Source: Bryum argenteum (taxonomy: Eukaryota; Streptophyta; Bryopsida; Bryales; Bryaceae). From it: DNA of 64,000 nucleotides. The notes beneath the pieces were generated by a model, which did not search any database, was not told where the DNA came from, and saw nothing but the letters and a program-made list of their open reading frames with translations. The DNA is taken from the NCBI GenBank assembly GCA_037043015.1, contig CM073321.1:3291001-3355000 (forward strand). Reading direction: 5' to 3'. Shown one piece after another: positions 503 through 44,557 of the stretch. Numbering within the stretch: position 1 is the stretch's first letter; each line of letters starts with the position of its first letter. Made by a program: the position numbers and the translations under genes.

Positions 503-3500
503 GAGTTGAGTCCATTGCAGTTGAGTCTGATTCTACAACGACTAGTGGTCATGGATATTGTGAGCCACGGATCTTAGAGATCGAATGAGAGCATACCTAA
601 GAGAAAGAAAAGGAGGGGTGAAACAAGGTTTAGTAATACCAAAGCGCTGAAGCAAAGCGCTTTGCGTAAGGGGGGAGTGTCTTGGTCAAGTGAAGACAAC
701 TGTGGTCCCGCTGATATTGTGAGCCGACAAATGTGCAACATTCATTTGTTTGGCTCAATGTTAATGTTTTGTCAAATGTTAGTTGAATATTGTGATATAA
801 GTATGAGGAGTTAGGGGTTTTGAATGAAAACCCTTAAATGTTAATTGGAAGGTTAGAAAGTATTAACTTTTTGAGAAGACTTTTTAGAGGAAGTGGAGTC
901 AATTTGAAGATTGGAGTAGGGTAAGAAGAAAAGGGGTAGTTGGTAGAGTAGGAAAATTAAACAATTAGATTAAGGACCCCACGATGGAAGCCCAAAGTGG
1001 TGAAGGAAGAGTGGGGGATTTGATGAGTAGAGTAGAAGGCCCACGATTGAAGCCCAAAGTGGTGAGGGAAGAGTGGGGGCTATTCCTTTCTTTCAAGCCG
1101 GCACTCCTTCGACAAACAAGATCAAGCTACAATCAATAGGTCTCTCATGGTTAATATCTTGTATGTTAGTAAAATTGTTAGTCTTTGTTGGTTGGCTTCC
1201 ATGGTGATTATTTATCACCTTGTGGCAATGGAAGCCACCATTGACCCTCCATTCAAGTGGCATGGTGGAGGGATCATGGGACTTTTATATACTTATAGTG
1301 GTAGGTAGAGCATAGGCATGGGACTTGCTCCCTTGCATGGATGGCAAGTTGGCTCCATTGTTAGTACTTACCCTTAGTTACCGACCAAGTAAATGGTCGG
1401 GTTAAAACTTGAGAGCAAGGGTATTTAAGCCTTGCTCCCAAGCTTGTTCATCATCTCTTTGTAATGACCCACTCAATCTAGTTAGAGTAGGAGAAGGAAG
1501 GCCATGGGCCTCCTTCTCCTTCATCTTGTTTCTCTCATATCTTGTTTGTCTACCTCTTCTTCTTTGTTTAGTTAGAGTAGGAGTAGGGAGGCAGGTGGAC
1601 CTCCCTCTCAATTTTGTTTGTCTACCTCTTTTTCTTTGTAATGCTTAGTTAGAGTAGGAGTAGGGAGGCAGGAGTACGAGTAGTAGTAGTAGGAGTAGTT
1701 AGAGATACACCCCTCCAAAGTTAAGGGTGTTGAAGGGTAACCGCTGCCGGCAGTAGGAAAAACAGCCCCAGTTATTTGGTAATCAGTCCTAGGTTTCTGG
1801 TCCTATGATTCTGAGATTTTGAGGGTGAGTGCAAAATTGACTTAGCTTTCTAAAAAGCTAAGGCACGCCCCAATCTGAGCTAGGATGGAGAAATGGCGAG
1901 CCAAAAACCGAGGAGGGCTCAAAGGGAGGCCGGCGGCGGTTTTCATCTTATTCTCTCCCTTGCTCCTTGTCTTCTCCTTGCCTCCTCTTGTCTCTTCCTC
2001 TTTCCTTCATGTGTTGTTCTTGTTAATCTCCTTGTGACCAAAGGCCACCTCCATGGTGGATTTTTGGCTCACAGATATCGACGGAGACAATGAAGAGGTT
2101 GGGCCACAATTTAGGCGGAGTGTGAAAATGCGGTCTATCAATCTGGACACGATTGTGGAGATCGCAGAAACGGAGAAATCTGATGGAGTGTCAGAGTGGA
2201 AGAGTATAGCCGACGAGCTTGAGCTTGGGAGACGGACCTCAATATCGAGCGAGTCTCTAAGTTATTACATTGGTGGTGATGGTGTTGCGGTGGATTCCAA
2301 GAGGCAGGTACGACAATAACTAAATGTTTTGTAAAAGTTAATTTTTGTGCAATTTCTGTTATTGAATTATTTGCTTGAAAAATAGGATGGTGCAGAAAGA
2401 ACATACAAAAATGACGAAGATGAAAATGCAAGCGATGGCGATGACGAGAAGGATGCTAACAATAGCCCTGAAGACCAAGCACAATTGGATCAATTGAAGA
2501 AATCGGATGAAGAAGAAGATGACGAAGGGTTGAGTGATAAAAACTTAGAGGATGAGGTAAAGCATATGGCCTTTTTCTTGAGTATCATGAATGAGAGCGG
2601 ACATGTATCAGCATTTACTTCTCCACTGTAAAATGCGAATATGTGCTTGTTGTATGCATCTGCAGTATTATAGCAAGTGATCACGTAGTAAGGAAATTAA
2701 TTTATGTTTCTACTCAATACCATATATGAAATGTATCTCTAAAGCACATGACATTAAAGACTCATAATTTTGTCCGATCAACGTAAAATTAATACTATGT
2801 ACTCGAATGAATAGAGATTTAGACAAGTGGCATTATTTTGCTTGAACAAAATTTCATTACACACACCGCACTTCACACTTAAACATGTATAATGTTATCA
2901 ACATTTTCTTGTGGAGTAATCACGGTCGGGGCAGATATTGAGTTAGGCCGGGGCGGGTAGTGAGTAATCTAGCAGATGGGTTATATCTTATCTCAAAAGG
3001 GCCTTTAGATCCGACTTGGCCTCGGTCTCATGAACAACGACCTGGCCTCATGAACGACAACGTGGCCTCGGTCACTTCGGTCTGGCAGTAGTCCGCCATC
3101 GGCGCTGACAGGAGGCGCCGTCGGATCCCGCAGTAGGCCGTCGTCGGCTTGGCGTGGGGACCATCCACCTGCGCTTCTAACCCTAACAGGCGCCGCATTG
3201 CAAATTCTCGTATCCTCGGGTTCCATCGAGAATGAAGTTTGATGAAGCATATATGGTCGCTGTCGGAGGGCAGTGAGGTACACTTAAGTTGTATACAGTT
3301 CATGAGTGCACATTTCAAATTGTAGGAAGAAGAAATGGAGAACAACTTGGAGAAAGAGGTTACAGTGCAGAAGGGAGGACAGAACAAGGATGGAGAGAAC
3401 ATCGACGTTGATCTGGTAAACGTAAGTTCAAATTCAAGCTTCTTTTCCGCTTTTTATAAAGCCCATTGGTACGCACCAGGAGAAGCATTGAAAACGCGAG

Positions 3501-3535
3501 CCGAATTGGAGCAGTGGTATTCTCAAAACTTGAAG
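503..3535 (+). pseudogene. Unrecognised intron-containing gene with NLS-like and acidic N-terminus, split by a solo LTR
   Basis: Exons are visible at about 503-717 plus 2079-2307, 2386-2556 and 3326-3535, each bounded by AG/GT sites (GTACGA after 2307, GTAAAG after 2556, GTGAGT after 3535). The first exon encodes a basic PKRKKRR stretch at about 601-623 that looks like a nuclear localisation signal. Removing 718-2078 rejoins the frame exactly (Pro-Ala-Asp-Ile-Asp-Gly). The third exon is very acidic (runs of D and E). The last has a Trp/Tyr-containing segment ending QWYSQNLK. A frameshift near 580-590 breaks the first exon, and no start codon or 3' end is visible. The protein family is not recognised. 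The basic-then-acidic design recalls the N-termini of copy A (8891) and the fragment at 45046, so it may be the front of a related gene, but this is inference. Confidence 0.45.
718..2073 (+). mobile_element. Solo LTR, family L1 (1356 bp)
   Basis: The element starts TGTGAGCC and ends GGCTCACA, a perfect 8-bp inverted terminal pair typical of LTRs. It is flanked on both sides by the 5-bp target duplication GATAT (713-717 and 2074-2078). No internal retrotransposon sequence is present, so it is a solo LTR left by recombination between two LTRs. Its 3' portion (about 1460-2073) aligns with the 5' LTR of the retrotransposon at 10660-11817, including the hairpin-like GGAGAAGGAAGGCCATGGGC block and the final TTTTGGCTCACA. 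The first ~700 bp do not resemble that LTR. It sits inside a coding exon. Confidence 0.9.
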
Positions 3536-4142
3536 GTGAGTCACACTCGATTTGATCTTCTAAGACAGTCCTTAATGTTTGACAATTCCGTCTTTGAGAG
3601 GCTATGGATGCTAGGATAGAGCTGAGACGCACATGAATACTTTCTTTCTTCCGGGTCGAGCCACCAGACTCTCACTCCGTGCCGAATGGCGATTGTCAAA
3701 CCCTGTTCTCCAATATTTTTATTTTTATTGTGTGTTTAAGTGTTAAAATGTTAGTTTTAGCGTCTGGAAATAAAGATCGGACAGCTAAGACCGATCTGTA
3801 GATAGCATTTTTGTTTTTTGGCTCATCCGGTTGGTCTTAGGGGATTCTAAAGCTTACCGGGAAGACCTGTTTTTACCCGGTCATCCTCTGTAAATTCCGG
3901 ATGGCCCGGTCACCTTACCGGGGTGATCACCAGGACTGCCGGTAAACCCGAAGGAATGGCCGGAAACCTCGCGCACGCCCAATAGAACTACTGGCGGCTC
4001 AATCATGGCCGGGATAATGACCGGTCTACCTCTCGAGGACGAGGTGATGATGTCTCAAGAGGAGGGTTCCGGACTGTAGTTATTAGACGCTGCCGCCACC
4101 ATTCTTAGTCATTCTAATCCGCGCATTCTTAGAAATTGTACA
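3536..4142. other. Non-coding spacer
   Basis: No open frame with coding character. The stretch 3780-4070 is rich in CCGG and ACCGG words (gacCGGTctac and similar) and resembles the untranslated parts of LTR elements in this window, but no boundary could be drawn. Confidence 0.4.
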
Positions 4143-19000: not shown

Positions 19001-20133
19001 CGGTTGTACCAGCGTGGCATTGATGGGGTCCTCCGCCGGTGCGTTAGTGAGCCCGTGGCATCACGCATAATTGTAGCATGCCACAATGACATTTGCGGCG
19101 GGCATTTTTCGGGCCGTCTCACGGCCCAAAAAATCCTTAGAGCCGAGTACTTTTGGCCTACCATGTTCGCCGACGCCCACCAGCACGCCACCAAGTGTGA
19201 CGCATGCCAACGGTTTGCTCGGAATGACCTCCACATGGCGTTCCCTTTAATACCCTCGCTACCCTTGCTTCCCTTTGAGAAGTGGGGAATAGACTACATG
19301 GGCCGGGTGCACCCCACTTCATCATGCCAAATGGCGTACGTCATTCTCACGGTCGATTATTTGACCAAATGGGTAGAGGCCAAGGCGGTCAAAGTGGCAA
19401 ATAAGAAAACCACGGCACTCTTTTTGTTTGAGAATGTTTTTTCTCGTTTCGGGGTCCCACGGGTTTTGGTTAGCGACGGGGACACCCATTTCCTCAATGA
19501 CCTCATTGAGGAACTTACCACGACTTACGGGATTGATCACCATAAAACCACCCCTTACCATCCTCAAACCAACGGCCTAGCCGAACGATGTAATCAAACC
19601 ATCGTGAGGATTTTGAGGAAGACTATCCATGACAACAAACGGGATTGGGATACCAAACTCAATGCCGCTTTGTGGGCATATAGGACCACGTTTAAGGTCA
19701 CCACAAAGCAAACCCCGTTTGCCCTCGTTTATGTGATAGAGGCGGTTTTACCTATCGAAATCGAGATCCCTCCTTGCGCATAGCAATCGAGGCTAGACTC
19801 CCCATTTCGGACTCTATCCACGATCGAGTCCTCATGCTTGAAGGGTTGAGTGAGACCCGGCGCCTTAGCGCTCAACACATTGAGACAATGGCCCGGCGCC
19901 GCAAGTTGGCTTTTGACAAGCTTCATAAGAAGCGGGTTTTAGCTCCAAGAGACTTAGTCATGCTCCAAGATGCCACAAGGATGGAATTTCCGGGCAAATT
20001 CGATGCTATATGGCTAGGCCTATTTGAAGTATAGGATGTCCGTCCAAACAACACCGTTCAACTCGCGACATTAGATGGCGCACCTTTCCCCGCTCGCACA
20101 AATGTCGAGCGGTGTAAATTGTACCACATGTGA
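16076..20133 (+). pseudogene. pol: pol polyprotein (protease, RT, RNase H, integrase) of the Ty3/gypsy element
   Basis: The 16076-19783 frame (1235 codons) is nearly all of pol. Protease is near residue 138 (VVDNGSGINVM, the Asp-centred motif). Reverse transcriptase covers about 450-740, with CIDYRRLN, MPFGLCNAPSAFQ and the catalytic box reading FIDN instead of the usual F/Y-x-D-D (18013-18024). RNase H covers about 785-910 (VYCDAP, TTERECLAMV, ADHLSR). Integrase runs from about 1000, with the HHCC finger (HNDICGGHF ... CDACQRF) and the D, D, E residues (GIDYMG, VSDGDTHF, NGLAERCNQ). A one-base shift near 19767 moves the integrase C-terminus to the frame at 19774, and a TAG at 20032 interrupts it before the tail ends at 20131-20133. 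Inactive. Confidence 0.93.
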
Positions 20134-20227: not shown

Positions 20228-22103
20228 TGTGAACCGCCGAAACGGTTCACGCTTGTTCGCAACACTATCTACAAGCGCTAGTATAATATTTTTACGTTCA
20301 AAATCCCCAATTGGGGCACTTAGGCTAATTTCTTCGGTTTCCGGAATTTCTACGATAATTGGAGGGGTCTACTTAGATGGCCCGGTGGTGGTTATTCTAT
20401 TCTAAATTAGTAATATTAAATTGCGTCAAAGTTTCATGACATGTTTTAGTTATGTTTTACTACTTTATCATTATTCATAAACTGCTCAAGTTTCCCCCTA
20501 ACTAATAAGCTAGGGAATTGGTAAAACCATGTGGATGAACTGCCGGATGAACAAGTTTCATCCGTACGGAATGGATGAAAATTACTCCATCCAAGTCTCC
20601 AACTAGGGAGAGAGGGTGGGAGTTAGGGAGAGAAGTTTTTTGGTGTGTGTGTGATTTTTTGGAAGGAGAGGAGTGTGTATGTTTTTGGAGTGTGTGTGAC
20701 TAGAAAAAAGAGTGTGTGAGGTGAGAAGGAGGATGAGAGTGTTTTTGTAGGAAGAGACATGATTTGAACTACATGATGAAGAAAATACGTTAGAGAGGGT
20801 GTGTGTGTGTGGAAGGTTGTTTGGGAGATGTAAGATCTAGATGTTGTTTTTGGGGGCCGTTTTTGAATCTTCTTGCTTGTGGTTTTTGTAGCAATCGGTT
20901 TTAGATCTAGTTTAGTGTGCATGTTTTGTTGGAAAGGGGTTGTTGGTGAAGGAGAACCCTAGGGGTTTGGAAAGAGGAATGTGTGTGTGTTCTTGGGTAG
21001 GTAGAAGGGTCAAGGTGAAGGCGTGGTGGCCGTTGGAGTGAGGGAGGGTCGGCTGTAGCGGCAGATTCAAAGGCCGACTTTGAAGGGCGACAATTCGAGA
21101 TCTACGAAGATTGGAGGGACGAGCCTTGGTAATTCGGAAGCGTCTCCAAGCCCTCTTTCCAGCAACACTAGGCTCGCCCTCAGCAGATGAAGGACGGAGG
21201 CGTGGTGGCAGTTGGAGCGAAGGAGGGTCGGCTGTAGCGGCAGATTCGAAGGCCGACTTTGAAGGGCGACAATTTGAGATCTACGAATATTGGAGGGACG
21301 AGCCTTGGTGATTTGGAAGCGTCTCCAAGCCCTCTTTCCAGCAATACTAGGCTTGCCCTCAGCGAATCAAGGATGGAGGCGTGGTGGCAGCTGGAGTGAA
21401 GGAGGGTCCAGCAGTGGTCGGAGACAACGTGAAGGGAGCCCATCCCTTCTCAAATCCTTGATATTTGTGTTTTTTGCAATTCATTTGGTGTGTGTGGTTA
21501 GACTCGTGTTATTACTTTAAAATTCGGTGGCTCTAATCACCCAAAAACATTGTGTAATTTGCATTGATTTGCTTGTTTGGATTTGCTTGTTTGAATTTGC
21601 TTGTTTGAATTTGCTTGTTGGTGTTTAGTATTGCAATTCTAGTTTTCATGTGCTAAATTTGTGCTGTAGTACTTTGAAAGGATGCAATTTGGGGGTTTTT
21701 GGTTGTTATTTGGCTCATTTGATCCCCATAATTGGGCCCAAGGCCCTGATGGTTAATTGGAGGCAATTTAAGGCTCCCAATGTCACAATTGGTGGATTTT
21801 GACCTTTAATTCACTGCTGCTTCTACTTAACTGATTGAGATTTAAATCTATTGGCATGTTTTTGCTCTTCTTAATTTATTTTGAATGTTTTGACTTTTGA
21901 TCTACTGCTGAAATTGTATGATTGCATGGAACATTGAGGATGTTTGAGTGTTTGTATCCCTTATTTGATTGAATTATTCTTGCATGCTTGCAATTAGAAA
22001 AAAACGGGTGACCCATTGCTTGGAAGGCCAAATTGTGTTGCACTCCACCCCCACGGCCCAACCTTGTGGCTTAAAAACCGGTTCACCGGGATTTGGGCTC
22101 ACA
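20228..22103 (+). repeat. 3' LTR of the Ty3/gypsy element, family L2 (1876 bp)
   Basis: It starts TGTGAACCG and ends GGGCTCACA before the CAGGG duplication. Its first ~410 bp and last ~100 bp match the solo LTR at 47804-49944 closely, while the middle differs. The middle holds a 179-bp tandem duplication (units starting 21020, 21199 and 21378). It shows no real similarity to the 5' LTR except the last ~12 bp. Confidence 0.85.
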
Positions 22104-22646
22104 CAGGGCACGGGATTAACGAATACATCCACAAGCATGTTAGAGCCAAGAGAGATACTTTAGAACGGGAGCTGAAGAAGCTTCTTCCAATTTGCGAAGA
22201 GAAATACGAAGGTAAATTCATCGACAAGGTGAAGGAGCAATACGAGACCTTCCATCCCTCCGAGATGCTCATCGAGAAGTTGTACGCATTTGCAACCTCT
22301 GCAATGGACATCAACTCCAAGCTTACTTGGTTGGACAGATGGAACAGGAACCCAAAGTCTAGGGAGGAATTGAAATTCCCAAAACAGAAGTTCTCCGATG
22401 AGCAATTCAATTCCTTCTTGAACAAAGCTACTTTCTGGGCACAGGTAAATGTGGGCAATTGAATTTGGACCTTTGGAATGTCTCGCTTCTTATGGAACGT
22501 CACTTCTCCTTTTCTTGTAGCTTTCGGAAGATTGTCAAACCCAAGTAGTTGGTGCTCTCAAGGCGTTGAGGGTGGACGTTGATTGTGAACCAGAGGGGCG
22601 AGACCGAATTATGCAAATCCAGGACTTATGCAGGGCCCGAAGTTAG
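22104..22646 (+). pseudogene. ParB-like/amino-methyltransferase family gene, copy A, 3' fragment
   Basis: Coding sequence resumes exactly after the retrotransposon. The exon to 22444 encodes a charged helical stretch ending KATFWAQ, with donor GTAAAT. The next exon (acceptor tttcttgtag, start 22521) begins L-S-E-D and stops at 22644-22646. Copy B has the same boundary: its exon 4 ends HLASLWAQ and exon 5 begins with Leu, at the same phase. A one-base deletion near the TGA at 10042 would put the 5' and 3' halves in one frame, so they are most simply two parts of one gene, although a second paralog cannot be excluded. The sequence stops before the methyltransferase region found in copy B. Confidence 0.5.
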
Positions 22647-26799: not shown

Positions 26800-27745
26800 G
26801 CTGCGAGGCTCAATGGCGTTGATAGTGATCCTGGGTGATTGTTGGAGCCTCCGATGGAAAGGAAGTCATGCTTCGATTTGGAATTCAGCTGTGATCTCTA
26901 CCGTGCTCGTCGAGCTGCGGTGCCTTGCTGAATTTCGTGAGAAGTGTGTCTAACCTGCGTCGACGTAGGTCTGGCGCAGGGACGGTAAATTCAACTTTTT
27001 TGGGAGCATTTCGAGCCTTCTCTTGCATGTTGTTTGACTGTATTTGAAAATCATTCGTGATCTTGTTCTTGCTGTAAGGCCTTGGCCGAATTTTGTGACA
27101 AGTGTGTCTAACCTACGTCGTCGCAGGTCTGGCGTAGGGACGATGAATTCTATTTTTTTGTGCACTGTATGCACCCTTCTTGCATGCTGTTTGAGTGATT
27201 TTTCTGCGAGCTATGGTTGTTGGCGGATGGGGTAAGACGCACAGGGGTCTAGCCAGCACTCTAGGGATGAGCCGAAGTGGCGGTGACAGTGATCCCGGTG
27301 ATTGCTGGAGTTCCGATGGAAACGACGTCATGCTTGAATTCGGAATTCCGTTGTGATCTCCTTCGTGCTCCTCTGAGCTACAGTGCCTTGCCGAATTTTG
27401 TGAGAAGTGTGTCTAACCTGCATCGACGTAGGTCTGGCACAGGGACGACGAAATCAACTTTTTTGGGAGCATTTCGAGCCTTCTTCTTGCATGCTGCTTG
27501 ACTGTATTTGAAAATCATTTGTGATCTTGTTCTTGCTGTAAGGCCTTGGCCAAATTTCGTGACAAGTGTGTCTAACCTACGTCGACGCAAGTCTGGCGTA
27601 GGGACGGCAAATTTGAAATTTTTGGAACCATTTTGGGATTTTTTCTTGTATGGTGTTTGACCGAATTTGATATTCATGGGTGATGTCGTTCTTGATGTGG
27701 GGCCTTGGCCAGATTTCGTGTCAGGAGTGTCTAGCCTGCATGGAC
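26800..27745. repeat. Tandem array, ~155-bp unit with a ~460-bp higher-order period
   Basis: The phrase ggccttggccgaatttcgtg, followed by agtgtgtctaacctacgtcgac and gtctggcgtagggacg, recurs near 26925, 27080, 27387, 27542 and 27702. A longer block (tgacagtgatcc...gtgatctc...) precedes it at about 26810 and 27275, giving a ~460-bp super-unit present about twice. Confidence 0.8.
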
Positions 27746-27880
27746 GCAGAGACGATGAATTTTAAAAACATAATTAAAAATAAAAGGTCGTTTCTTTTAG
27801 TAATATTATGGTTGTTAAGTTCTTTGGCGTTTTATAGTATCTGATAATTCGCATGCTAATGGTTTTGACTTGAATTGCAG

Positions 27881-28198
27881 GATTTGTTAAAGCTACATGG
27901 AGTTGTTCCTGAAGAGGAATCTGATGCCTACAGCGAATTGTCTACTTTGAGAGATTATGTCATGGGTGCAGTAGAGTCCCGTCGTTTAGTAATACCTTTG
28001 TCCTCGGTTCCCGAAACTCCGCCTCGTGCCTCTCCTCTCCGGCACACTTCACTTGATGATGTTGATCGGGTTGCATGAGCAAAGTACATGCGTAATTACT
28101 ATATTCAATCGCGAGCTCTTAGAGATAAAGGAAAGGAATTAGCTAGGATTGCACCCCGTCGTTCACCGCGACTTGCAGCAAAGATGAAGTCTTTATAA
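27881..28198 (+). pseudogene. 3' exon of an unrecognised gene
   Basis: It follows a splice acceptor (ttgaattgcag). It encodes DLLKLHGVVPEEESDAYSEL and continues to a basic C-terminus, PRRSPRLAAKMKSL, with a TGA at 28076-28078 inside and TAA at 28196. The upstream exons would lie in or beyond the tandem array, so the gene looks truncated. No family recognised. It ends 138 bp before copy B starts and could be its 5' exon in an alternative splice form. Confidence 0.35.
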
Positions 28199-28335: not shown

Positions 28336-31300
28336 ATGAGAATATCTGAAGTTGCTACACCTCAAGACGGTGAGAACACCCCATCCCCTATGAAGGATGT
28401 GCCAACTCCAGCTTCTGATGGAAATGGAGTTCTTCTTGGGGTTGATAGGATTCTCTCACCGCAAGAAGTTTTTGAAGGCGATCGGATTGTAGGTCCGGAT
28501 AATAGTCAACTTGGATCTGAACCTTCTCGCCAAGCTATGGAGGATCATGCTTGTATAGAGGCCCTCTCTGATGATGAAGAAACAACTTTGCCTGGGAGTG
28601 TCAACATCGACATCGTCCGCATGCCTCCACATCTACAAAACAAGGATCTGGACTGAAGTGCGAATGAAATGCAAATGATTCACAAGAGTAAATCGATTGC
28701 GACCATCAACAGGTTGCGTATCAAACATGTAAAGAAGTCACGAATGCTGATTCCTTTGTGTCGCTTAGAGTGTTACCCGAAGGTTCGATCAATCTCTGAA
28801 CAAGACGTGAGAAAACTCGAGAATGAGTTCAACAAAGGATACCGGGAAGAAGATCGAGTAATGTACGTATCTCCTTTCGATCGAAAAGGTAGAGAAAAAT
28901 TGGTTGACGCAAGTGATGAATTGTGGACGAACCCGCTTTGGAGAGAAGCTAATGAAGAGTTTGAGAAGTCACTTCGATCGGATCCAGATCTGCAACATTT
29001 GAGTAAGAAGTACTTCTACATATATGAGGGTAACCACCGTGTTACAGCCTAGATGCGACACATAGAAAAATACCACAAGATAGATGCTTTGTGCTACATA
29101 TCCGTTGATTGCATCGTTCTTGATGCTCGAGGAGAGAGCAATCTCCTCCTTGATGCTATGAACGACATAAACTGGTAAGTATCATTCCAGTTCTTCGATT
29201 CACTTTACTTTATACTCATTCAAACTAGAGTCCTCTCATGTGACATTTTGTTGTGTAGGTCTACCAAACATGACCACGTCGAAGACAATCTCATATCTCT
29301 AGACGATTACCAGATCTGCAAGAACGCCAAGGCAAAAAAGGAGACTTGGTATCCAGTTACAGTTGACGTCTTCGTGAAGTTCCTATACGCGGTATGTTGA
29401 CTATACATGTGCTTGACCAATTTAACTTCTCAAGTATTTCCTCAGTTTTTCTCACTAATTTTTGTTTGCTGTTCAGAGGAAGTTAGCGAAAGCATCAGAC
29501 AATGCTGAGACTGCATACTACGCTAGTGTTCCAAAATAGAAACAAACTGGACCGGACGTATGCACTGCCACGGACAACGCCATTAAAGTGGAAATAAAAT
29601 CGATTTGTACCAAGAATTTCGATAAGATGGTTGCTGTGGCCAGTAATAAACTTGGGAAAGTATTCCCCAAAGAGGTATGCAAGACTCCCTTGTAAGTTTT
29701 GTTACTAATATACAAGTCATTTCATTCCATAATTCCAATCAAATTTGTCATATTGTCTTCCTTGCAGATTTATTCTCATTATAGTCAGAGCCTTAAGCCA
29801 GATATGACAATCGATCGCTTACACATGGTAGCTACAACCAACGTTCATTTCGATTTCAAGGGAAAGTGGCTCCAATGGTGGAACGCTTCAAACAAAGTTC
29901 GTCGCTCTGTCCACTTCCTAGAAGAGCGTCTGATGAAAGATAGAACTTTTGTTGCATTTCTTCATCTCGCTTCTCTATGGGCACAGGTATCTTTCTTTTA
30001 TTTACGTATATACAGTATTATTGTCGTTATGGTATTCTCATTTGTAAGTGGTTCCTTGATGTTCAGCTAGAACAATCATTGGAAAGAGAATTGCAGAAAC
30101 TGGTGGAGAATGGCAATCTTGACATTCAATGGTCTAGTGTTGTCCTCAAGCCATCAGCGTACGTCAAGAAGTGGAGGGTGCTCTTAAGGGAGAAGGCATT
30201 TGCCAACTACCTCTCTCCTAATGCAAGCCCAAGGTTCATTAAAGGCTCGGATCTACAGAAGATTGGTGGCAAAGTAACAATAAAACGTCTTTTATTCCGG
30301 TATGTACTCAAGTTGCTTTTCACCTTTATCAAAATTTATACAGAATATTCAATTTGGTCATTCTAATATGTTCGTTTGTGTCTAGGTACTTGAAGCAAGA
30401 GCTTCTGGCAAAAGGAGCATTAGCTTTGTGGTACATTCCAGCAGAGTTTGAAGACGTCGCAGTCACAAACGATCCCAAGATCCTTTTCTCTGAAGTTGAG
30501 CGAAAACGGTTTAGTGACGCACAATTGTTGACGGGTGGTTGGTTTCTTGAGTGCGAGAATAACTATGTGCACAAGGAGGAGAAGCATCTTCTTCGAAACA
30601 TCGGTTCAAACGCACCTTACACTGCACCTTTGGAGATTGACGATGATGACGACAACAATCTTTCGATGTTAGCAAGCGCACCTGATCCACTCTCTCCGCC
30701 TTCTTCACCAACTGCGCAGCCTAAGACTCGACCAAACAAAAGGCGACGCAACACTGCTGCGGATCCTACAGTAGATCCAGAACACGAATCCGCAGAAATT
30801 GCTCCCATCCCACAAGAGATTGCACGGTCGGAAGAAGTTGATCTCACTCAAACTTCAGATGGAGCGACAACCAATGCAATTTGACGCGGTGCAAGATTGG
30901 CTCAACTTTCTATAGCTGCTCTTACGAATGCGGGGTCTCCTCCTCAATCTTTCACCGTCAACCACAACTCCCTGCTGTCACCTTGTCGCCACAGCCAACC
31001 TAAATTTGCCAAACGCCCTTTCCGAAATCCAATCACATTGGTAGCAGCTCGTCGTCAAAAATTACAGTCACTCTACCTATGTATCTTGAGAAGGGGAACA
31101 TTAGAGAATGGTTCATTAATCGTCGAAGACTAGTATCAGGGATTCGCAAATCCTCGATATCGTCCAGCACATCAAGAAGGTATTATTTCGTACATTTGTC
31201 ATTTATAATCTCGCAAAGTACGTTTTGTATTTGTAAATCTACTAGCCACCATCTAATTATTGACTTGTATTTCAGATTGGAAAAGACCAAAAGTACCCGT

Positions 31301-32573
31301 GTTCGGCGATGGAATATGATCCCAAGCATCCAGGGATTAATATCATTTTTGCAGACGCTCCAGAGAACTTGTCTGTACCGGGTGTGTCTCCAACAGAAGT
31401 TCCATCCTGGAACCGGCGTGATAAAAACTACTTTGAGAACCTTTTTATCTTTGCCGCATACCACCTGACAGACGTTGGAGCCATTCTTGTGATGCATCCC
31501 AAATGTCGTAGAATCGAGCATACTCTCGATTCTGAATCCCATACATATAGTTTTCGTGTTGTTCGCGACTGGTGGGGATATAATCCACTCCCAATGGCCT
31601 CTACCGTACCGCACCCGAAAGAAATACGGAGCAGTTTGTAGTTTCCATTCTCACAATTTATGATTACTGCCTTCTATGCTTGTATGTTAATATCTCTATA
31701 CTTGTGTTTTGCAGACTCACTGCTTCCATATCAAACTTTATGTTCAAAACAACTTTTTTTCGAAGTTCCAAACTCGGCAAGTAGCACACGCATAGCGGGT
31801 GTGGCAATCATACCTGATGAGGAAGACCACCTCTTTATCTTTGCAGACAAAGAGACATTGCGTACTCATCCGGACGGTACGCCATGGAGAGGCTCACGAG
31901 AGAAGGACCCCTCTTTTATTCAATGTTTCGTAGATTGTCTCACAGAGGACGGAGGTATAGTCTTCGACTGGAGCGCAAGTACAGGTAACGTATCCGTAAA
32001 CGCAACTTTAGTATTCGTTTATACATTTCGCATTTCTAATGTGCGCTTCTGATTTTTTAGGTGCATTTGTAATTGCTTGCGTGCGCTGACACCGACACCA
32101 AATCACCATGGAACTTGACGAAGAAATCTTTGATGGTGTACTAGCGGAATACAAGAATGGTCCTCCCAATGATGAAGAAAGTGGAGAATCGGCCCCACCC
32201 GCAGATTATGACTCTGAGGAACCGCCAGTGAAGAAGCCAAGGAAGTTTATTGGTGTGTAGTATCATCGTCTATTTTCTTTCTCAAATTTGTAATCTGCTC
32301 TTACAAATATATTGTACTGACTTTCTTTGTACTTTAAGCATCGCAGGTCTGAAAGAGCAATCGACTCGCAACACTCATCTCTACAATAGCCCTCCATCAA
32401 CATTCACTCTACCTTCCTACGCTGAGCGTTTTGCTCAAGAGTTTGTTGAAGCTCCATCTCCCATCTTGTTTGACACTACATGTCCACGTTCTAGTAATAG
32501 TATGCATAAGTATATAGACTTTGAGGCTAATGAGTGTGACCTGCACTTCAATGGTGCTACACCTTCTACTTAG
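28336..32573 (+). pseudogene. ParB-like/amino-methyltransferase fusion gene, copy B (ten-exon model)
   Basis: Exon model: 28336-29174, 29259-29391, 29477-29674, 29768-29986, 30067-30299, 30386-31179, 31276 to about 31632, 31715-31984, 32061-32252, 32347-32573. Most junctions are in phase. Residues begin acidic. A ParB/sulfiredoxin-type domain then runs from IPLCRL to EGNHRVTA at 29026-29049. A helical middle and an acidic, basic-tipped linker (KTRPNKRRR, 30730) follow. Next is an amino-methyltransferase in permuted order: FADAPEN (31354, the D-P-P-Y slot), then GAILVM after a helix, then VFDWSASTGAFVIAC across the exon 8/9 junction (the D-x-F-x-G-x-G slot), then MELDEEIFDGVL. This is the layout of N6-adenine/N4-cytosine DNA methyltransferases. 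Breaks: TGA 28654, TAG 29050, TAG 29537, TGA 30882, TAG 31129, TGA 32088, and a doubtful phase at exon 6/7. The Pro-Pro-Tyr motif is not intact, so activity is uncertain even before decay. Confidence 0.6.
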
Positions 32574-33447
32574 TATGTGCTTTGTTTTCCGATAGGCACT
32601 TGACTTGGTAGCGCCATGTATTCATAATTGCCATAATATAATATTTATTTATGTGTTCTTGAATTCCGTATTGAATTATTACTTATTGTGATTATCGTTG
32701 ATATCTAAACATACACTAAGTGCTTCACGAAGGTCAATACACTGTAATGAAAAATGATGATGTCAGCCCTTATTCTAATGTAAAAAGTACTAATTCAAAT
32801 TGAATGTCACTAAATAAAATATGGTTTTGATCCCATAATTCAAATAAACGTGTGTAAAAAACATTAAATCATATTGAGAGACAATGGTAACCTCCAATTT
32901 CATATGATTTGGGATCGATGACGTCAGCCCTAATTTCTACACAACAATAAAATCCGAGGCCAGGATCCCTCCTTAATGATTTATAAAATGGGGCCATGAT
33001 CACATTCACATGAAAATAGGATCTAAATCTACGGATTTGGGGTACTCAATTGGACTAAAGTAATCCCTACAAATTTTAAAAATGCTAAAATCAATGGTCA
33101 TAGGGTCCCTATCTTTCACAGATATATTTTTAAATGTTTACGTCTACCCATGCCATGTTGGACCTTACCGCTCACCGCTCACACCTCTACATTCCCCTTC
33201 CTCAGCTCAAGCCCATTTAACTCGAGTTGAGCTAAATGGACTTACTAATTGGTTCCAAGTCAAGCCCATTTAGCTCGACTCGATCTAAATGGTCTCGAAC
33301 CTCGTTTTGAGGTCAAGCCCATTTAGCTCGAGTCGAGCTAAATGATCTCGCCACTGAATCAAGACTAGCAAAATTATACTTCTCTGATGCGCGTGTATAT
33401 TGCCCTTGTAAATCTTACATGTGATTCTTTTTTATTGAATGCCAGTG
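32574..33447. other. Spacer downstream of copy B
   Basis: Non-coding. Carries the TGACGTCA-type words shared with the flank of copy A (32757 and 32918) and, at 33216-33342, three copies of the dispersed palindrome spaced exactly 53 bp apart. Confidence 0.6.
33216..33342. repeat. Palindrome array, three copies at 53-bp spacing
   Basis: Copies at 33216-33236, 33269-33289 and 33322-33342 of a 21-bp palindrome with core TTAGCTCGAGTCGAGCTAA, each embedded in caagcccAT...ATGgtctcg. The third is perfect apart from the central base; the others have one or two transitions. Confidence 0.9.
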
Positions 33448-36400
33448 ATGCCGAGAACGAGAACCACTGCCAAAATTGTTCAGACGGCTGCGAATGCACC
33501 TGCCGAGCCTAAAGTTGAAGTCGATATGGAAGCGGAGGAGCCAGAGTCTGTTCCTCACGTAAAACTCCACCTCATATTCATATGCCCATCTGGTGTGTCC
33601 ATTTAAATCGAGTTGAGTTAATTTGCCCTCTGTACATTTGTTATCCATAGGTCACTTACAACATGCAAGCACTGGAGGGATACCTTGAACCAGTCGTTCA
33701 CGAATCAGCAGACAATTCGCCTGCAACCATTGCTGAGGACGTGCAATGGGGGAGGTTGTGGACCCCCAAGAGAAATTCCATCGTCTCTTGGTCTATTCGT
33801 TCGATGAACAAGACCCATTTCTTCTTCTACCAACAGTCGGGGTCTCATGGGGCATTTCTACCTCTGTGTCTTGATGCTTTCATCGGTCTTGTTACTTATG
33901 AAGACGCATACCTCCTGATCAAGTTCGAAGCGTTGGAGGTCGAAGGTTTCCTCTTCACTATTGTATTTCCGCCCAATGAAGTCCGATTCTCCCACGACTT
34001 CATCCGCAATTATACGGTCGGGAAGGTCAATCCCACTCAACTTCATCATCTTGACATGAGATTGGTGCCCAATGTTTCTTCGCCAAAAGCCTTCGTGAGA
34101 TTGTACATTCCTTACACGGTGCAGATTCGGAAGGCTCTGTCTGATTTCAAGACTGCGAAGAAGAAAGGGAAGGCTCCGATGAAACGGACCGGGAATCTAC
34201 TGTTGCAGGCTCCATCCGAAAATGCTCCGTCGGGTCTAGGCACTTCAGAGGGAAGTCTAGGCGGGCAGGGAACGAAGCGGACAATCCCAATCTCATCCAG
34301 CTCTGGCTCCAAAAGGAGCAAATCCTTCGGCAGCGCACTTACGTTCATGAACCCCACAATGAACGTGGTTGTCTCGGAAAAGGAGATCAAGTATCAGGAA
34401 GCAACGAAGGCTCTCAAGGACTATTGGAGCAACTGCGCAGACTGTTATGTCTTTGGTCGTGACGATCCGCTCGACGTGTCGATTGACCTGCTCGACCCTG
34501 CAGAACCAGGATTTATCGTGAGATCTTTGGAACCGACCGGAATTGCCTATTACAAGAACATATTGATGAATTCCCTTCAATGTTAGTTCCAGGCAAATGA
34601 TCATCATTATGCCAAATATTAAAGATGAGTCTGAGATTTGGGATTGGGAAGTGCTGGTCCAAACTTGTCGGTTCCGGATTATCGATGGGCAGCACCACGT
34701 TGAGGTTGCGAAACAGTTGATTCGTGACAAGAAGGTTGACGACGCGAAGATCCTTGCCCTGCAGACATGGAAAGCCCATGTTGTGTGGCATTCAGACATT
34801 AGCAAGATTATGGATGTGTCGGCCATGGCGAACAAGACGAACAATGCTGGCACCTTCATTCCTTCATGGGCAATGAACATCAAGGTCGCAAGAAAGGTTT
34901 GGGAAGATTACGGTCGCCCAGTAAAATTGAAGAAGCCACACCAACGTGAAACAGCGGTTGAAGAAGATAACCGTAAACGATATGAGGTATGAGATTACTT
35001 ATTCTTTTCTGTTTCTGTTTGGCTTAATTCGCATCGTATGTCGACGTTTTTCGGTGACATCGTTTTAGCTCGACTCGAGCTAAAACAACATATCTTGTTC
35101 CTTATTCGTTTGGCTTTGGTCCAGGCATTCGCGGCTACTATGGTGAAGAGGTTCATAAGCATCAACACAAACGCGAGGGACAAGATTGTCAGTCCGTCCG
35201 ACCTTCGCAACGAGCTCCTCATCATCACATCTCCGGACGACGTCTACGAGTTGTGGTCGAGGTTCATCACCGACTACGGACGTGGAGAGCTGATCGACCC
35301 CGACACCGAGCTACCATTTAATCAGGCGAAAGATTGGGAAACCGCCGCAAAGAAGTTCACCTTGAACAGGGAGTTCCTCAAGGGAATGGGGCAGCTAGAT
35401 GCAGAGGACCTCGAGGTGTTGGCGCTGCATTTGTTGAATGAGACTCCGGATCGGACATTGCCTTACCCGAAGGTGTCCGTGAAGGAGTTCGTGAAAAAGT
35501 ACTTCAAATGCTTGAGTCCAAAGCAGTGGGTCAAAAACCGGAAGAGGAAGAACAGTGTCGCAAGGGAATTGCACAACCTCAAGCCCTCGCTCGGTTTGTT
35601 CAACTCGGAGTGGCAATTCGACGCCGACAACTGGAAGAAGTTTAAGAGGACTACAATCTGAATCGTCACACTATGTCCATGCTTCTCTTGGTCCTGGGCC
35701 ACTCGTTCTTCACACTGTACCGCCAAAAGCAGACCAAGAATAAGAGTGTAGAAGAAATTTTTGAACATGCAGCGGAGTTCTTCAAGAAGTTCATGTATGT
35801 CAAAGGGACATTTGAACCTCCTGCACCAGTTGTTTACACGCGGCAATTCTACTCATCAACATTCAGATTCGGGATTTGGGACAAGGACTACGCTTGGAGC
35901 CAATCTAGCAAGTGTGATATCGGCTTGATCGATTTGCGATCTGTCCGTGGGAGTGGAAGTAGAGTGGACGACACGGAGAGTCCATACTTTCAAGAAGTCC
36001 TTGATACTTGGGCAGACACCGTGACCAATCCTCACATCAAGAATCCCGAGGTCTGGATATTCATCACATCGAACGTCAACCGACAGTTCCTGGCAGTGGT
36101 TTACGTTGACAAGAAGTTGAAGGATGAGTACGCTTGCAAGGCAGCCAACTACATGCCTTCTAGCAACGAGCGTTTCAATGGGAGAGGAGAGGGAAATGCT
36201 TCGGAGAAGCACCTGCTCCCCTTGCTCTTCCTTGTCAAGAAGAGCAGCCACGCGCAGAATATCCTGAATACGATTCCACCTATATTCTATGCGCCAGACT
36301 TGCCCCTCTACTCGAAGTCCGGGGCGTACAAAGAACACGACTTAGGTCTTAGTCACTCTGAGCTGCGATTGGAGTTCTATTATCGTGTGTTGAAGATGTT

Positions 36401-37261
36401 TTCATCTCCGGGGGGGGAGTTCTTATTAATAATGGCTGGCACAAAGCCAATGTTGGCTAGAATTGTGAGTACCTCACACCATTCCTTTAATTGTAAGTAC
36501 ATACGCTAGTTTAGCTCGAGTCGAGCTAAACGGTCTCATGCTCGTTTAACTCAAGTCGAGCTAAACAGACTCATGCTCGTTTAGCTCGATTCGAGCTAAA
36601 CGGTCTCATGCTTAAAACTTTTCATTCTTTGTATTTTGTCCATGGCCTTTTACCTCGAGTCGAGCTATTTCCTCTTAGTCTTCTTATAAGTTTTTGTCTC
36701 CTTCTAAAACAAATGTGCCAGACTGAGACATATGTTGTTATTAGCAAGAACAAGGCGGAGGCTTATACAAATGCTGCAGCGGACTATCAACATTTGGACT
36801 ACAACGATATCAACGTTGCAGCATACGTAAATCCGGAAGCTAATGTCGGTCCGAAGGGTCGTGTTGAAGGGTCGGGGAAGGGAAAGAAGAGGAAGTCGAA
36901 AAAGAAGTCCACGCAGCCTCTTAGTGACGACTCTTCAGCTTCGGAGCACAAATGTGAAGATGAAGGTGGTCCTTCTTCTCCGGCCGGGATGAATGCCTCC
37001 ATGGATTAAACCGTTGCTCTTGTGTCTCCTCCCGCAATTGACTGGGCAGCGTTGGCAATTCCGACCAGTGCTGCTCGTGCTCCCCCTTGTGGTCGTGGTT
37101 CGAGCGCTTCTCAGGGTCGTGGAAACGGTCGGGCTCGGTCTTCAGCGTCTCGTGGCTGCGGTACAGCACGCGCCCCCTGCGCGAATCCGCTAAGTGTTCT
37201 TCTTCTGAGGCGCGAGCTCGCGACGCTTCTCGGTCGAGAAGCCATACAGTGCCTCAATTAG
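33448..37261 (+). pseudogene. Divergent ParB/DGQHR-like and methyltransferase-like gene D
   Basis: Exons 33448-33558, 33651-34986, 35125-36464 and 36722 onward, all joining in phase at GT/AG sites. The start is ATG 33448 (MPRTRTTAKIV), two bases after an acceptor. The N-terminal half is an unrecognised domain with an alternating hydrophobic pattern (VGKVNPTQLHHLDMRLVP), then a Ser/Lys linker. A DGQHR/ParB-like loop (RIIDGQHHVEVAKQL) lies at 34672-34716. The third exon ends like a methyltransferase, VLKMFSSPGGEFLLIMAGTK, continuing across the intron as RITETYVVISKNKAEAY. This parallels the final glycine loop and the following strand of amino-methyltransferases, but the D-P-P-Y slot (LIDLRS) is not conserved. 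Single-base frameshifts occur near 34586 and 35648, and TAA at 37007 interrupts a Ser/Arg-rich tail that stays open to 37261. Three introns each carry the dispersed palindrome. Confidence 0.5.
36510..36668. repeat. Intronic palindrome array, 35-bp spacing
   Basis: Palindrome copies at 36510-36530, 36545-36565 and 36580-36600, spaced exactly 35 bp, and a degenerate one at 36648-36668, all in the third intron of gene D. Each unit reads palindrome plus cggtctcatgctcg. Single copies lie in the other introns at about 33600-33621 and at 35064-35084. Confidence 0.9.
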
Positions 37262-37329
37262 AGAGGGCGCTCGAATCCAACTATGGCGCTTGCGATCTCG
37301 TCGGGGACATAGAGAGCCCCCCCTTCTAG

Positions 37330-38665
37330 CTCCTGCGTTGTGTTAGTCCATCTGGTGAGGATTTAGCTCGAGTCGAGCTAAACGAGCAGTCTCCTGGGGT
37401 CGATCTTGGGGCCGCTGGGACTTGGATTGGAGAGACGGTTCCACTCTTGCGTTTTCGAAGGGATATTCGTTCAATGAACTCGAATGATGGAGTCTACCGG
37501 GTAATCTTTGGCAAAGATAATGTAGTGCCTGGCCAAGAGCGACTGCCACAGGATGCGCCAACTTTGGACAGCTCTAACTCGTCGGACGATGACGGCAACG
37601 ACGATGACGGCGCTGATGATGCTGACCCCGTGGCCATGACCTTAGGTGATGAGGTGGCTCTCGATCCATCCCACAACAAGTCCTCTTTGGCGGCTGCTCC
37701 CCAATGCCCGCTGATCGCACCCTGGAGGCAGATTGAGAAGGGGAAGTACGACAAATGGTTCGTGAAAGGAGTGTGGAAGCCCGAGGACGAGCCGGACGAT
37801 AACATAGAAATCCGGTATTACGACTTCTTGGAGGAGCCTAGTTCTCCAAAGCCAAAGAGCACTAAGGATGATCCTCTTCTCCCTGTCGTGCCTCTGCTCA
37901 AAGAAGAAGGAGAGCCTTCACAACCACCAGTGAAGCTGGAATTTGTCGCCCCTCTGCTCACTAAGGATCAGAAGCGGGCACAGAAGCGGCAAGAGAAGGA
38001 GGCGCGGAAGGCCCTCAAGGCAGAGGAAGAAATAGAGAGAGAGAAGCAAAGGTTAGCAAACATCGCATCCTAGAATGTACAAGTTGACAGATTGGAGTCC
38101 ACATTCCTGAGCTCTCAGTCTGAAACTCGCATGGCACTGGGCAAGGTGGAGCAGATGTTTCTCTCATTCAGGAATATCTTATCCCAATTGCCTATTCCTC
38201 TTTTCATTGCCTCCATCATACCTGATCAACCTCGCCTCAACATCTATGACGCGAGTCCACCAGCCATCGTCGCGCCTCAACAACCTCCTCATGTTGTTGA
38301 ACTGGAGACGCACCCCGCCCTATACTCCTCAAGATTTTGGATAGGCCCGCACAAGGGCATGATGTCCCGACTGAGGTTACGGCAACGCCGACCCATCACA
38401 CCCCTGCAGTAGCATTGGGTGTGAGGGAGAATGCAGAGGTTGTCGCTTCCCCTGACCCTCCCGTGGCTGCTATCGAGACGGCTAAGTCTTCACCGGTAAA
38501 TCCAAAGGTTAGTTACTATCCTTTTCTTGTGTTTGTCTTTGTGATCGTTGTTGGTGATGGCAGTTGCTCTGCTATTCCCTCATGTTTTGAAGTTTTCGCA
38601 TTTAGTAATCTTAAAGCCGACGCTCCTTGTTTGACAGGAGTCCGGCACCAATGGCGGCGAGTAGG
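37330..38665 (+). pseudogene. Acidic, coiled-coil ORF with stops
   Basis: One frame open before and after TAG at 37327 and TAG at 38071. It encodes an Asp-rich segment (about 37580-37630), a Pro/Glu-rich middle and a strong coiled coil at about 37960-38170 (QKRAQKRQEKEARKALKAEE, then a heptad-like LESTFLSSQSETRMALGKVE). A frame change near 38340 leads to a short Pro-rich end, an intron near 38512-38637 and ESGTNGGE-stop near 38665. The palindrome at 37362-37382 is read in frame here as LARVELN. It may be the tail of gene D or a separate gene. Not recognised. Confidence 0.35.
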
Positions 38666-38803
38666 TCAATGAGTAGTCTCCGAATTATTGGATGTTGTTT
38701 CGCTTTTTGTACATAGTACACTTATAAACGTTGTACTTATTGAAACATCATTCAATAAAATTGAGACTCTTTTTTTGTACATCACTTTTTGTCTTCACTG
38801 AGT

Positions 38804-39871
38804 ATGCGTCCTTCTCATCACAAGGCCCTAAACATCGTCCTTTTCTACGAGGCCCCCCTTCTGAATACCTTGTTCCGTCCGATTGCTTCAAAATCCCCCA
38901 CCAACCACCTCATGTTACCTCTGGGTGTCGCGATTCAATACGAAATGACTGCTGGCAGTTCTTTGCATACTTCAGCATTTTGCAAGGTACAAACCCTCTT
39001 GTTTTTATACCATTTGCCATTGTTATGTGTTCCCTCGCTGCAGGCCGGACCGTCAAAACAGCCACAACAACGTATCTTGCCCGAGCTACCCATTACGCAT
39101 ATCTCGCGCAGTCTTTTACGATCCAAGCCCAAGTGGTTGAATGTGGTGTTGGAGTTGGATGGGGTTCTATGTTCGATGGCCTCTGTCTCTTCCTTATCGC
39201 CTGCAAAGTGCCTGTCTTTTCCGGATCCCAATAATCCTCCGGTGTTTTCCTCTACCGTCCCAACTTTAGTTGCCGGCAGGGTCGTCTACTGTCGTCCCAG
39301 GTTGACCGGGTTCTTTCGCTTATTAGATTTGTTTTGCCCCATCTACGTCTGGAGTACCCTAGATCCTAAGGTTGTCCATGGACTCTGCTCCTTTTTGTTC
39401 TCGAAGTCAGACACTGCCCCTGGACTTGTCTTGGCTTCCAACCAATGCAATAATCTGTTGTTGAAGAATTACGCATTCGCCAAATACCCCGGCACGACAA
39501 ATTCCATCCTCTTAAAATATCCTAGGCGGCGGTTGTATCCTAGGAAGGGTGCCAATTTCAATGACGATAACTTGCTCATTGTCGATTCCAAGCCTGAGAC
39601 TTGCATTGCGGTTCCCACAAAGAACACACTTTTCACTGTTCCGTGGAACCATTCCTGTCTGGAGGAGCCAAAGTCCGACTTATTAAAGAGGATAGGCGAG
39701 ATATGTCTTTCCGTGCATTTGAACGGTCCTGAGAATTTTGCCGAGACTATGCGCCATCGTAGACCCACGCATAATGAACTGTCAAAGGACTCAGAGTTGT
39801 ATATGCTCCTGAGCCGTAATCTCCCATATTTGTGGAATCAGGACGGAATCACTAGGAAGAATTTGCCTTGA
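38804..39871 (+). CDS. FCP1/NLI-interacting-factor-like HAD phosphatase, probably inactive
   Basis: The frame from ATG 38804 to TGA 39869 likely contains one intron (about 38986 to 39042; AAG/GTACAA ... GCTGCAG/GCC, in phase). After a poorly conserved N-terminus the product has the FCP1-homology layout: WLNVVLELDGVLC at about 39132-39170, the slot of the D-x-D-G-T/V nucleophile motif, then RPRLTGFFRLLDLFCPIYVWST and a later acid motif around NDDNLLIVDSKPET. Enzymes of this family remove phosphate from the RNA polymerase II tail or related substrates. Here the first, catalytic Asp is Glu, so activity is doubtful. The neighbouring palindromes and MULE suggest a mobile or duplicated locus. The exact start is uncertain because another frame is also open across the first 200 bp. 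Confidence 0.5.
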   Translation: MRPSHHKALNIVLFYEAPLLNTLFRPIASKSPTNHLMLPLGVAIQYEMTAGSSLHTSAFCKVQTLLFLYHLPLLCVPSLQAGPSKQPQQRILPELPITHISRSLLRSKPKWLNVVLELDGVLCSMASVSSLSPAKCLSFPDPNNPPVFSSTVPTLVAGRVVYCRPRLTGFFRLLDLFCPIYVWSTLDPKVVHGLCSFLFSKSDTAPGLVLASNQCNNLLLKNYAFAKYPGTTNSILLKYPRRRLYPRKGANFNDDNLLIVDSKPETCIAVPTKNTLFTVPWNHSCLEEPKSDLLKRIGEICLSVHLNGPENFAETMRHRRPTHNELSKDSELYMLLSRNLPYLWNQDGITRKNLP

Positions 39872-44100: not shown

Positions 44101-44557
44101 GGACCTGGAGGGAGACGGAGCTATTGAGGTTGACTAAGGATTTGGAGGTAACTAAGTATCCTGGGAAGCAGGTGCGGTGGTCTTCCTACCGGACTATACA
44201 TCACTCTTATCGCATTTCATGAGTGGATTCAATTTTGCACTAGATGGAAGGATCTCGCACTCAGACGCTGAGGTTGCTCCTGCCGGTTGTGAAGGAATGA
44301 CAACGCCGTGAACACGGTACTGCAAAGATTGTAATATCCACACTACATCCTCACATACAAATGGCTCAATGTGCACAGTATATGAGAGACTCCTCTAGGA
44401 AGAGCGAATCAAAACCCAAATTAGACTTTGCAGACAACATTCTAGCACTCACGACGATTCCACCATCAGATTGAGGTAGCACACGCAAAGGGGCTCGCCC
44501 AGCATCCACTGGATAGTTGCCGTCAGAGAAAAAGATTTCAAAAGTTGATGAAGGCAC
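41142..44557 (-). pseudogene. MULE transposase with SWIM zinc finger, lacking its catalytic core (copy 2)
   Basis: Read leftwards: an N-terminal segment (44557-44366, PSSTFEIFFSDGNYP), a linker, then a Cys/His-rich DNA-binding region at about 43990-43450 (HHDGHTWCNLHTC, YCARHLCCENAECCFLQR, CAICK, HHNHPV) and the start of the transposase domain (LQHAWVMFDHVKRI) to 42922. The central part with the catalytic acids, present in copy 1 (VMTIAICDMQSE ... FMADSAQAN), is absent: sequence jumps to the Trp-rich region (DNWLAWWHF) at 42905-42660. The 3' part includes NLFETVHASWSKHSGKLWDN (42528) and the SWIM finger, Cys-Thr-Cys ... Asn-Cys-Lys-His near 41320-41240, ending RLLLNGIV at 41142. TAG stops and frame changes are scattered. 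Defective deletion derivative. Confidence 0.75.

Follow-up and report, generated by a model that had tools for sequence, protein, structure and literature searches.

A ParB- and methyltransferase-like gene of a high-copy moss DNA transposon and its candidate self-recognition palindromes

In a 64,000-nucleotide stretch of the Bryum argenteum genome (assembly GCA_037043015.1, contig CM073321.1, positions 3,291,001 to 3,355,000; hereafter the window), we analyzed a ten-exon gene, gene B, whose product joins a ParB/sulfiredoxin (Srx)-like domain to a permuted amino-methyltransferase-like domain, as an earlier sequence-only reading of the window had proposed. Gene B is an accessory gene of a high-copy, probably Mutator-like DNA transposon family. 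Judging from sequence, we put the probability that its product is a sequence-specific self-recognition protein of the transposon, acting through palindromes upstream of the gene against silencing, at slightly below one half. A site-specific DNA-binding protein encoded close to its own sites would be expected to show such a layout, with a ParB fold next to tandemly arrayed palindromes.

Genome scans covered the 258.8-Mb assembly in 25 contigs. One exon of the window gene B had 1022 candidate places, and the 150 that were scored all matched at E ≤ 2.3e-53 with 80–88% identity (self excluded), a copy number far beyond the earlier suggestion of a multi-copy gene. We fetched 20 gene B copies, chiefly better-scoring ones with long open frames and thus a non-random sample. 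A sharp right end, ...CGCTCACACCGGTGGTTTCCCC, is common to 12 of the 20 fetched loci and occurs at 231 places in the genome; the left end, GGACGTTGCTACCGTGTGAGCG, occurs at 354 places when searched without its first G. From the matches listed, we picked 15 pairs of ends by eye, which delimit elements of 10.8–17.9 kb (median 14.1). Every pair is flanked by a target-site duplication of 10–11 bp (12 perfect, 3 with one mismatch), compared to 0 of 210 mispaired controls, and this length falls within the 8–11 bp of Mutator-like elements (MULEs). The complete copy EL13 (13,398 bp) also has the terminal inverted repeat of a MULE, about 39 bp long and imperfect, with the outermost 8–9 bases unmatched. 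Among the matches listed, a gene B exon lies inside at least 8 of the 15 end-paired elements. Ends, duplications, and copy number thus assign gene B to a family of DNA transposons; it is not the captured host gene it had been taken for. We call the element Mutator-like because of the duplication length and because a window paralogue weakly matches the SWIM finger (E=0.0087, under the cut-off), a placement that is likely rather than proven because Pfam found no transposase domain.

We scanned the 2.65-kb stretch preceding gene B for tandem arrays in 21 copies, including the window copy, using 22 window tiles and 18 gene bodies as controls. Arrays of at least 600 bp were present in 17 of the 21 copies and in none of the controls of either kind; at a 300-bp threshold, the counts were 19/21 copies versus 3/22 tiles and 1/18 gene bodies. 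The units vary in length and sequence, with 100 bp or more in common in 5 of 171 copy pairs (leaving out the duplicate EL13). Short words that recur in the arrays form a palindrome of 24–26 bp, of type T, CCAGACNTTCGTSSACGAANGTCTGG, or type G, CRGACTTGCGTCGACGCAAGTCYG, which is found about once per repeat unit in regular arrays. A site within 5 mismatches of 24 is present in 18 of the 21 copies and is missing from the 22 tiles, the 18 gene bodies, and 63 shuffles. Genome-wide, within 2 mismatches, T palindromes occur at 420 places and G palindromes at 650, and the reversed patterns at none. Fourteen of the 17 T clusters among the matches listed sit 1.2–5.6 kb upstream of a listed gene B exon (matched by hand), and the remaining three have no gene B exon among those matches.

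The palindrome type tracks the 5′ exons of gene B. In L011, T sites accompany a gene B that is T-like to the first half of exon 6 and G-like after it, and L015 has G sites together with G-like exons 1–4. Six residues (108, 218, 343, 371, 380, and 432 of L023) separate eight T copies from four G copies, the maximum over 495 splits. This association is a lead and not a proof, as shared descent would yield the same pattern and the array lies near exon 1.

In an intact gene B copy, the ParB-like region gave a weak match to the ParB-like family phrog_1033 (E=0.0054 over 41 residues, 119–159, with EGNHR beginning at 126). The AlphaFold2 (AF2) model of a relative, P0001, has ParB, Noc, KorB, PadC, and Srx as its structural matches, in keeping with a ParB N domain. 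A G-x-x-R-x-x-A stretch is a ParB-type motif and is likewise found in the gene B protein. The Pfam scan of the intact copy returned no ParB family match, and Pfam found neither a ParB nor a methyltransferase match on the decayed halves of the window copy, for which the query sequences were approximate, lacking one residue close to the start and carrying an incorrect exon 7/8 junction. The protein resembles bacterial and plasmid ParB, KorB, and Noc in its N-terminal fold and in having palindromic sites near its gene; unlike them, it is eukaryotic and fused to a methyltransferase-like domain, and its candidate sites are arrayed in tandem.

The second domain aligns over its whole length with phage methyltransferases in HHalign (probability 96.5) and matches the PHROG 3008 DNA methyltransferase in an intact copy (E=6e-6). 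The profile check suggested by the sequence-only reading succeeded in part: PF01555 (N6_N4_Mtase) matched the intact copy at E=0.0014, below its gathering score, and gave nothing on the decayed halves. Slot order and whole-domain alignment agree with the beta-class (permuted) DNA amino-methyltransferases such as DpnA and PF01555, as had been read. Unlike that class, DPPY and FxGxG are replaced in every slot counted. The catalytic slot reads [DNS]PP[YFW] in 0 of 26 slots (29 pattern matches less 3 chance ones in L017 and L024), which extends the replacement first seen in the window to every slot counted, and most copies keep its first acidic residue and second P. With the slot sequence left free, the S-adenosylmethionine (SAM) loop reads FxGxG in 0 of 23 slots, of which 21 are DWSx[SN]TG and 2 are decayed (L014, L020). 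These replacements suggest that the half has lost catalysis and is probably a binding or scaffold module and not a normal N6-adenine (N6A) or N4-cytosine (N4C) enzyme.

The window gene B is itself a decayed copy, as indicated by in-frame stops (two in exon 1, others in exons 3, 6, and 9), frameshifts (exons 6 and 8), and the loss of the splice donor after exon 7. All other exon joins are GT-AG. The intron-bearing structure proposed for it holds, and the motifs quoted for it are present where they had been placed. Fifteen of the 20 fetched copies could be aligned to it, omitting L017, L019, L020, L024, and L028 as rearranged or cut. Three of these (L013, L023, and L027) read through the full gene, with 1166–1187 residues and a TTG start in L027 versus ATG in the other copies, and are the intact paralogs for which a search had been advised; the other 12 aligned copies and the window copy have no full open frame. 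For six pairs among L009, L013, L023, and L027, of which L009 has one internal stop, the ratio of nonsynonymous to synonymous substitution rates (dN/dS) is 0.16–0.21.

Searches with the N-terminal half found 101 relatives in a set of 143 candidates, and no Pfam domain is listed for any of the 101; those with the methyltransferase half found 9 among 116. The full-length protein recovered three annotated proteins, all from the moss Ceratodon purpureus (3 of 4793 candidates), at 50–54% identity over 71%; they are the closest named relatives and support the plant-lineage origin suggested earlier. We also considered a viral origin and rejected it: 53 pattern matches in an IMG/VR scan with the ParB alignment yielded 0 confirmed relatives. 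Divergent gene-B-like pieces at window positions 9139–9894 and 22088–22447 (+; 33% and 26% identity) are perhaps remnants of older family relatives.

Upstream of gene B on the + strand, and ending directly before it, lie several charged exons that match no Pfam family and appear to belong to one joined gene, gene C. In the window, the pieces of gene C at 542–3547 and gene B at 28336 seem to be parts of one element split by later insertions. Between them, at 14094–19783 (+), are frames that resemble gag-pol of long terminal repeat retrotransposons (including a 1249-aa frame), as judged by eye.

Four elements (E14, E16, E18, and E25) carry a transposase-like gene, whole or partial, on the strand opposite gene B. 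Part of this gene in E14 is SWIM-like, without a Pfam match to that part, and a PDB search with the transposase candidate returned no match. No transposase of this type was found in EL13. The point inside the transposase at which E16 stops was considered as an element end and dropped once the left end was located. In L033+L037 (C3:10488560-10499000), a transposase-like gene lies on the strand of gene B, whose own match does not begin until residue 116; this is either a different arrangement or a rearranged copy. The window also holds transposase-like and SWIM-type pieces at 5910–6883 (−) and 41145–44388 (−) that are element-related but divergent (27–53% identity).

Near its left end, EL13 has an ADD zinc-finger frame (ATRX ADD, E=1e-15; Pfam ADD_ATRX, E=0.00077, below the cut-off). 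Genome-wide, the frame has 291 candidates; 150 were scored, and many of those are fragments or represent a distant second match. In L018 and L025, it lies beyond gene B. A second, more distant zinc-finger match is often found about 2 kb from the ADD frame. Further long frames occupy window positions 33651–39871 (+). Pfam found no match for 33651–34586, 34993–35661, or 35646–36509, and the frame at 38765–39871 weakly matches NIF phosphatase (PF03031, E=0.00038, below the cut-off).

Table 1. Features of the element, in window coordinates unless a locus is named
Feature	Position	Strand	Basis
Gene C 5′ exons	542..3547 (542-718, 2071-2313, 2392-2622, 3359-3547)	+	tblastn with E16 and EL13 pieces: 40-68% identity, E 1e-4 to 2e-22
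Four degenerate palindromic sites	26950-26973, 27108-27131, 27413-27436, 27572-27595	.	4-5 mismatches of 24; 0 in 22 window tiles
Remnant of tandem array	27385..27748	.	Tandem Repeats Finder (TRF), period 159 bp, 364 bp
Gene C last exon (basic RRSPRLAAK-type tail, stop)	27881..28198	+	tblastn to E16 exon, E=3e-31 over 27881-28192
Gene B (ParB-like and amino-methyltransferase-like domains)	28336..32573	+	Ten exons; decayed copy; DNA homology to fetched copies
Gene B exons 1-5	28336-29174, 29259-29391, 29477-29674, 29768-29986, 30067-30299	+	
Gene B exons 6-10	30386-31179, 31276-31623, 31715-31984, 32061-32252, 32347-32573	+	
ParB/sulfiredoxin-like domain (IPLCRL ... EGNHRVTA ... AMNDIN)	28744..29174	+	phrog_1033 on intact copy; AF2 model of relative P0001
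Amino-methyltransferase-like domain, beta order	31276..32160	+	PF01555, PHROG 3008, HHalign, all on intact copies
DAPE slot (catalytic position)	31354-31365	+	Within methyltransferase-like domain
DWSAST(G) slot (SAM-loop position)	31966-31984	+	Within methyltransferase-like domain
Element right terminal sequence (ends ...TTCCCC at 33197)	33175..33197	-	Pattern, 0 mismatches, 0.02 expected
ATRX-like ADD frame	L068:934-1392 (-); L018:7620-8051 (-); L025:8976-9397		

Proteins of this kind are already known, because ParB-methyltransferase accessory genes of algal transposons are in print: passages of one report describe Sola1-1_Ec32 of the brown alga Ectocarpus (2025), with a ParB-like and N4C/N6A methyltransferase accessory gene, and mention similar green and red algal cases, cited there to Iyer 2011 and Petroll 2025 (PMC12477816). 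The view that no description existed thus falls for this kind of protein. As far as those passages describe it, the Ectocarpus gene is likewise a separate accessory gene of about 1100 aa in a large eukaryotic DNA transposon, with the same two domain types. By description, the element reported here is set apart by its moss-type host, 10–11-bp duplications, non-Sola1 transposase, and changed catalytic motifs; its palindrome arrays and ADD gene do not appear in the passages on Sola1-1_Ec32. In open-licence PMC text, mostly at title and abstract level, we found no description of a moss element, two-type palindrome arrays, a joint motif change, or an ADD gene. What is new here is the palindrome arrays, the changed motifs, and the ATRX-like ADD gene of some copies.

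VANDAL elements, the Arabidopsis transposons that encode VANC proteins, are of Mutator type. In the passages available, VANC targets are described as a short conserved motif within non-coding tandem repeats of fast turnover, and the VANC21 motif as the nine-base YAGTATTAY in one orientation (PMC5735166, PMC10398659). As far as these describe it, the two systems share a plant DNA transposon, an accessory gene, and a subfamily-specific short motif in the element's own fast-evolving tandem arrays; here too, an element-specific motif lies within diverging repeats. The differences are that gene B encodes a ParB- and methyltransferase-like protein, which VANC is not described to be, and that its candidate site is a 24–26-bp palindrome compared to nine bases for VANC21.

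We hypothesize that the 5′ half of gene B, with its ParB fold, would recognize the palindromes as a dimer, each being a parS-like site in a repeat unit. The bound protein would then coat or mark its own element, and copies of the same subfamily so coated or marked would escape host silencing, a sequence-specific recognition of self like that demonstrated for VANC proteins and VANDAL tandem repeats. We infer palindrome binding, dimerization, and anti-silencing from the sequence. Self-recognition, most likely for anti-silencing, is preferred because a ParB-fold protein is encoded beside arrayed palindromes and because the units, as with VANC, turn over rapidly while the motif is kept. More tentatively, with odds nearer one in three, this may be a land-plant transposon with its own ParB/parS-like system, comprising a dimeric ParB-domain protein, a non-catalytic methyltransferase fold, and co-diverging subfamily palindromes, through which silencing would be removed or blocked, in some copies with the aid of an ADD histone reader.

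Several observations weigh against self-recognition by gene B. The binder could instead be gene C, the ADD gene product, or the transposase, and Pfam shows no DNA-binding domain in the gene B protein besides the ParB fold. No Foldseek match reached E 0.001 or better, the PF01555 match (19.1 bits) is under the gathering cut-off of 26.7, and the AF2 model of the methyltransferase half (P0111) has a mean predicted local distance difference test (pLDDT) score of 32 and gives no usable fold. The copies in which the palindromes were counted are also those that supplied the patterns; sites are missing from L017, L020, and L024, and every site in L019, L026, and the window copy carries 3–5 mismatches. 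Of the six diagnostic residues, just residue 218 falls within the ParB fold, and the link with palindrome type may reflect hitch-hiking or shared descent because the array closely neighbors the 5′ half of gene B. The dN/dS of 0.16–0.21 stands without a neutral yardstick, and constraint is weaker over the first 100 codons (0.48–0.76). With regard to the Mutator assignment, Pfam gave no MULE match for transposase candidates of 638 aa (E ≤ 5) and 658 aa (E ≤ 1).

Alternatively, the gene B protein could be catalytically active, as an N4C or N6A methyltransferase that marks its own transposon, the palindromes being methylation targets and the mark protecting from or attracting host chromatin factors. 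Palindromic sites are typical targets of N4C/N6A enzymes. Whole-domain profile homology to phage DNA methyltransferases is consistent with activity, as is a catalytic slot that in most copies retains its first acidic residue and its second P, and the Ectocarpus authors, in the passages available, suggested that their protein binds and modifies its own element (PMC12477816). We nevertheless consider catalysis unlikely, as [DNS]PP[YFW] and FxGxG are missing from every slot (0/26 and 0/23) despite the low dN/dS. An equally improbable role is that of a transposition co-factor that binds the arrays to pair or bridge parts of the element or to assist the transposase, without a part in silencing. TnpA of En/Spm is the model for such a protein, and ParB proteins bridge and condense DNA. 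Gene B is element-encoded and is present whether or not a transposase can be detected in the element, and its site arrays are internal to the element, as a co-factor would allow. However, the arrays lie between gene C exons, away from the element ends, and their units differ strongly among copies whose ends are identical.

Plant Mutator-like elements capture genes, and gene B might be such a passenger, carried along with no function in the element, with arrays and palindromes as unrelated by-products. The lack of a full open frame in 12 of the 15 aligned copies and in the window copy would fit. This is the least probable of the alternatives, given a dN/dS well under 1 between divergent copies, the presence of the same gene in Ceratodon, and palindromes that are conserved within otherwise unconserved repeat units.

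For the algal ParB-methyltransferase transposon genes, the role is a guess and the DNA target is unnamed in the passages available, whereas in Bryum a candidate target is visible in the sequence, as subfamily-specific palindromes beside the gene. A simple binding assay could therefore test the guessed function directly, and in plants that are tractable. If self-recognition against silencing is the function of gene B, this system would be an independent counterpart of VANC/VANDAL anti-silencing, made of bacterial-type parts.
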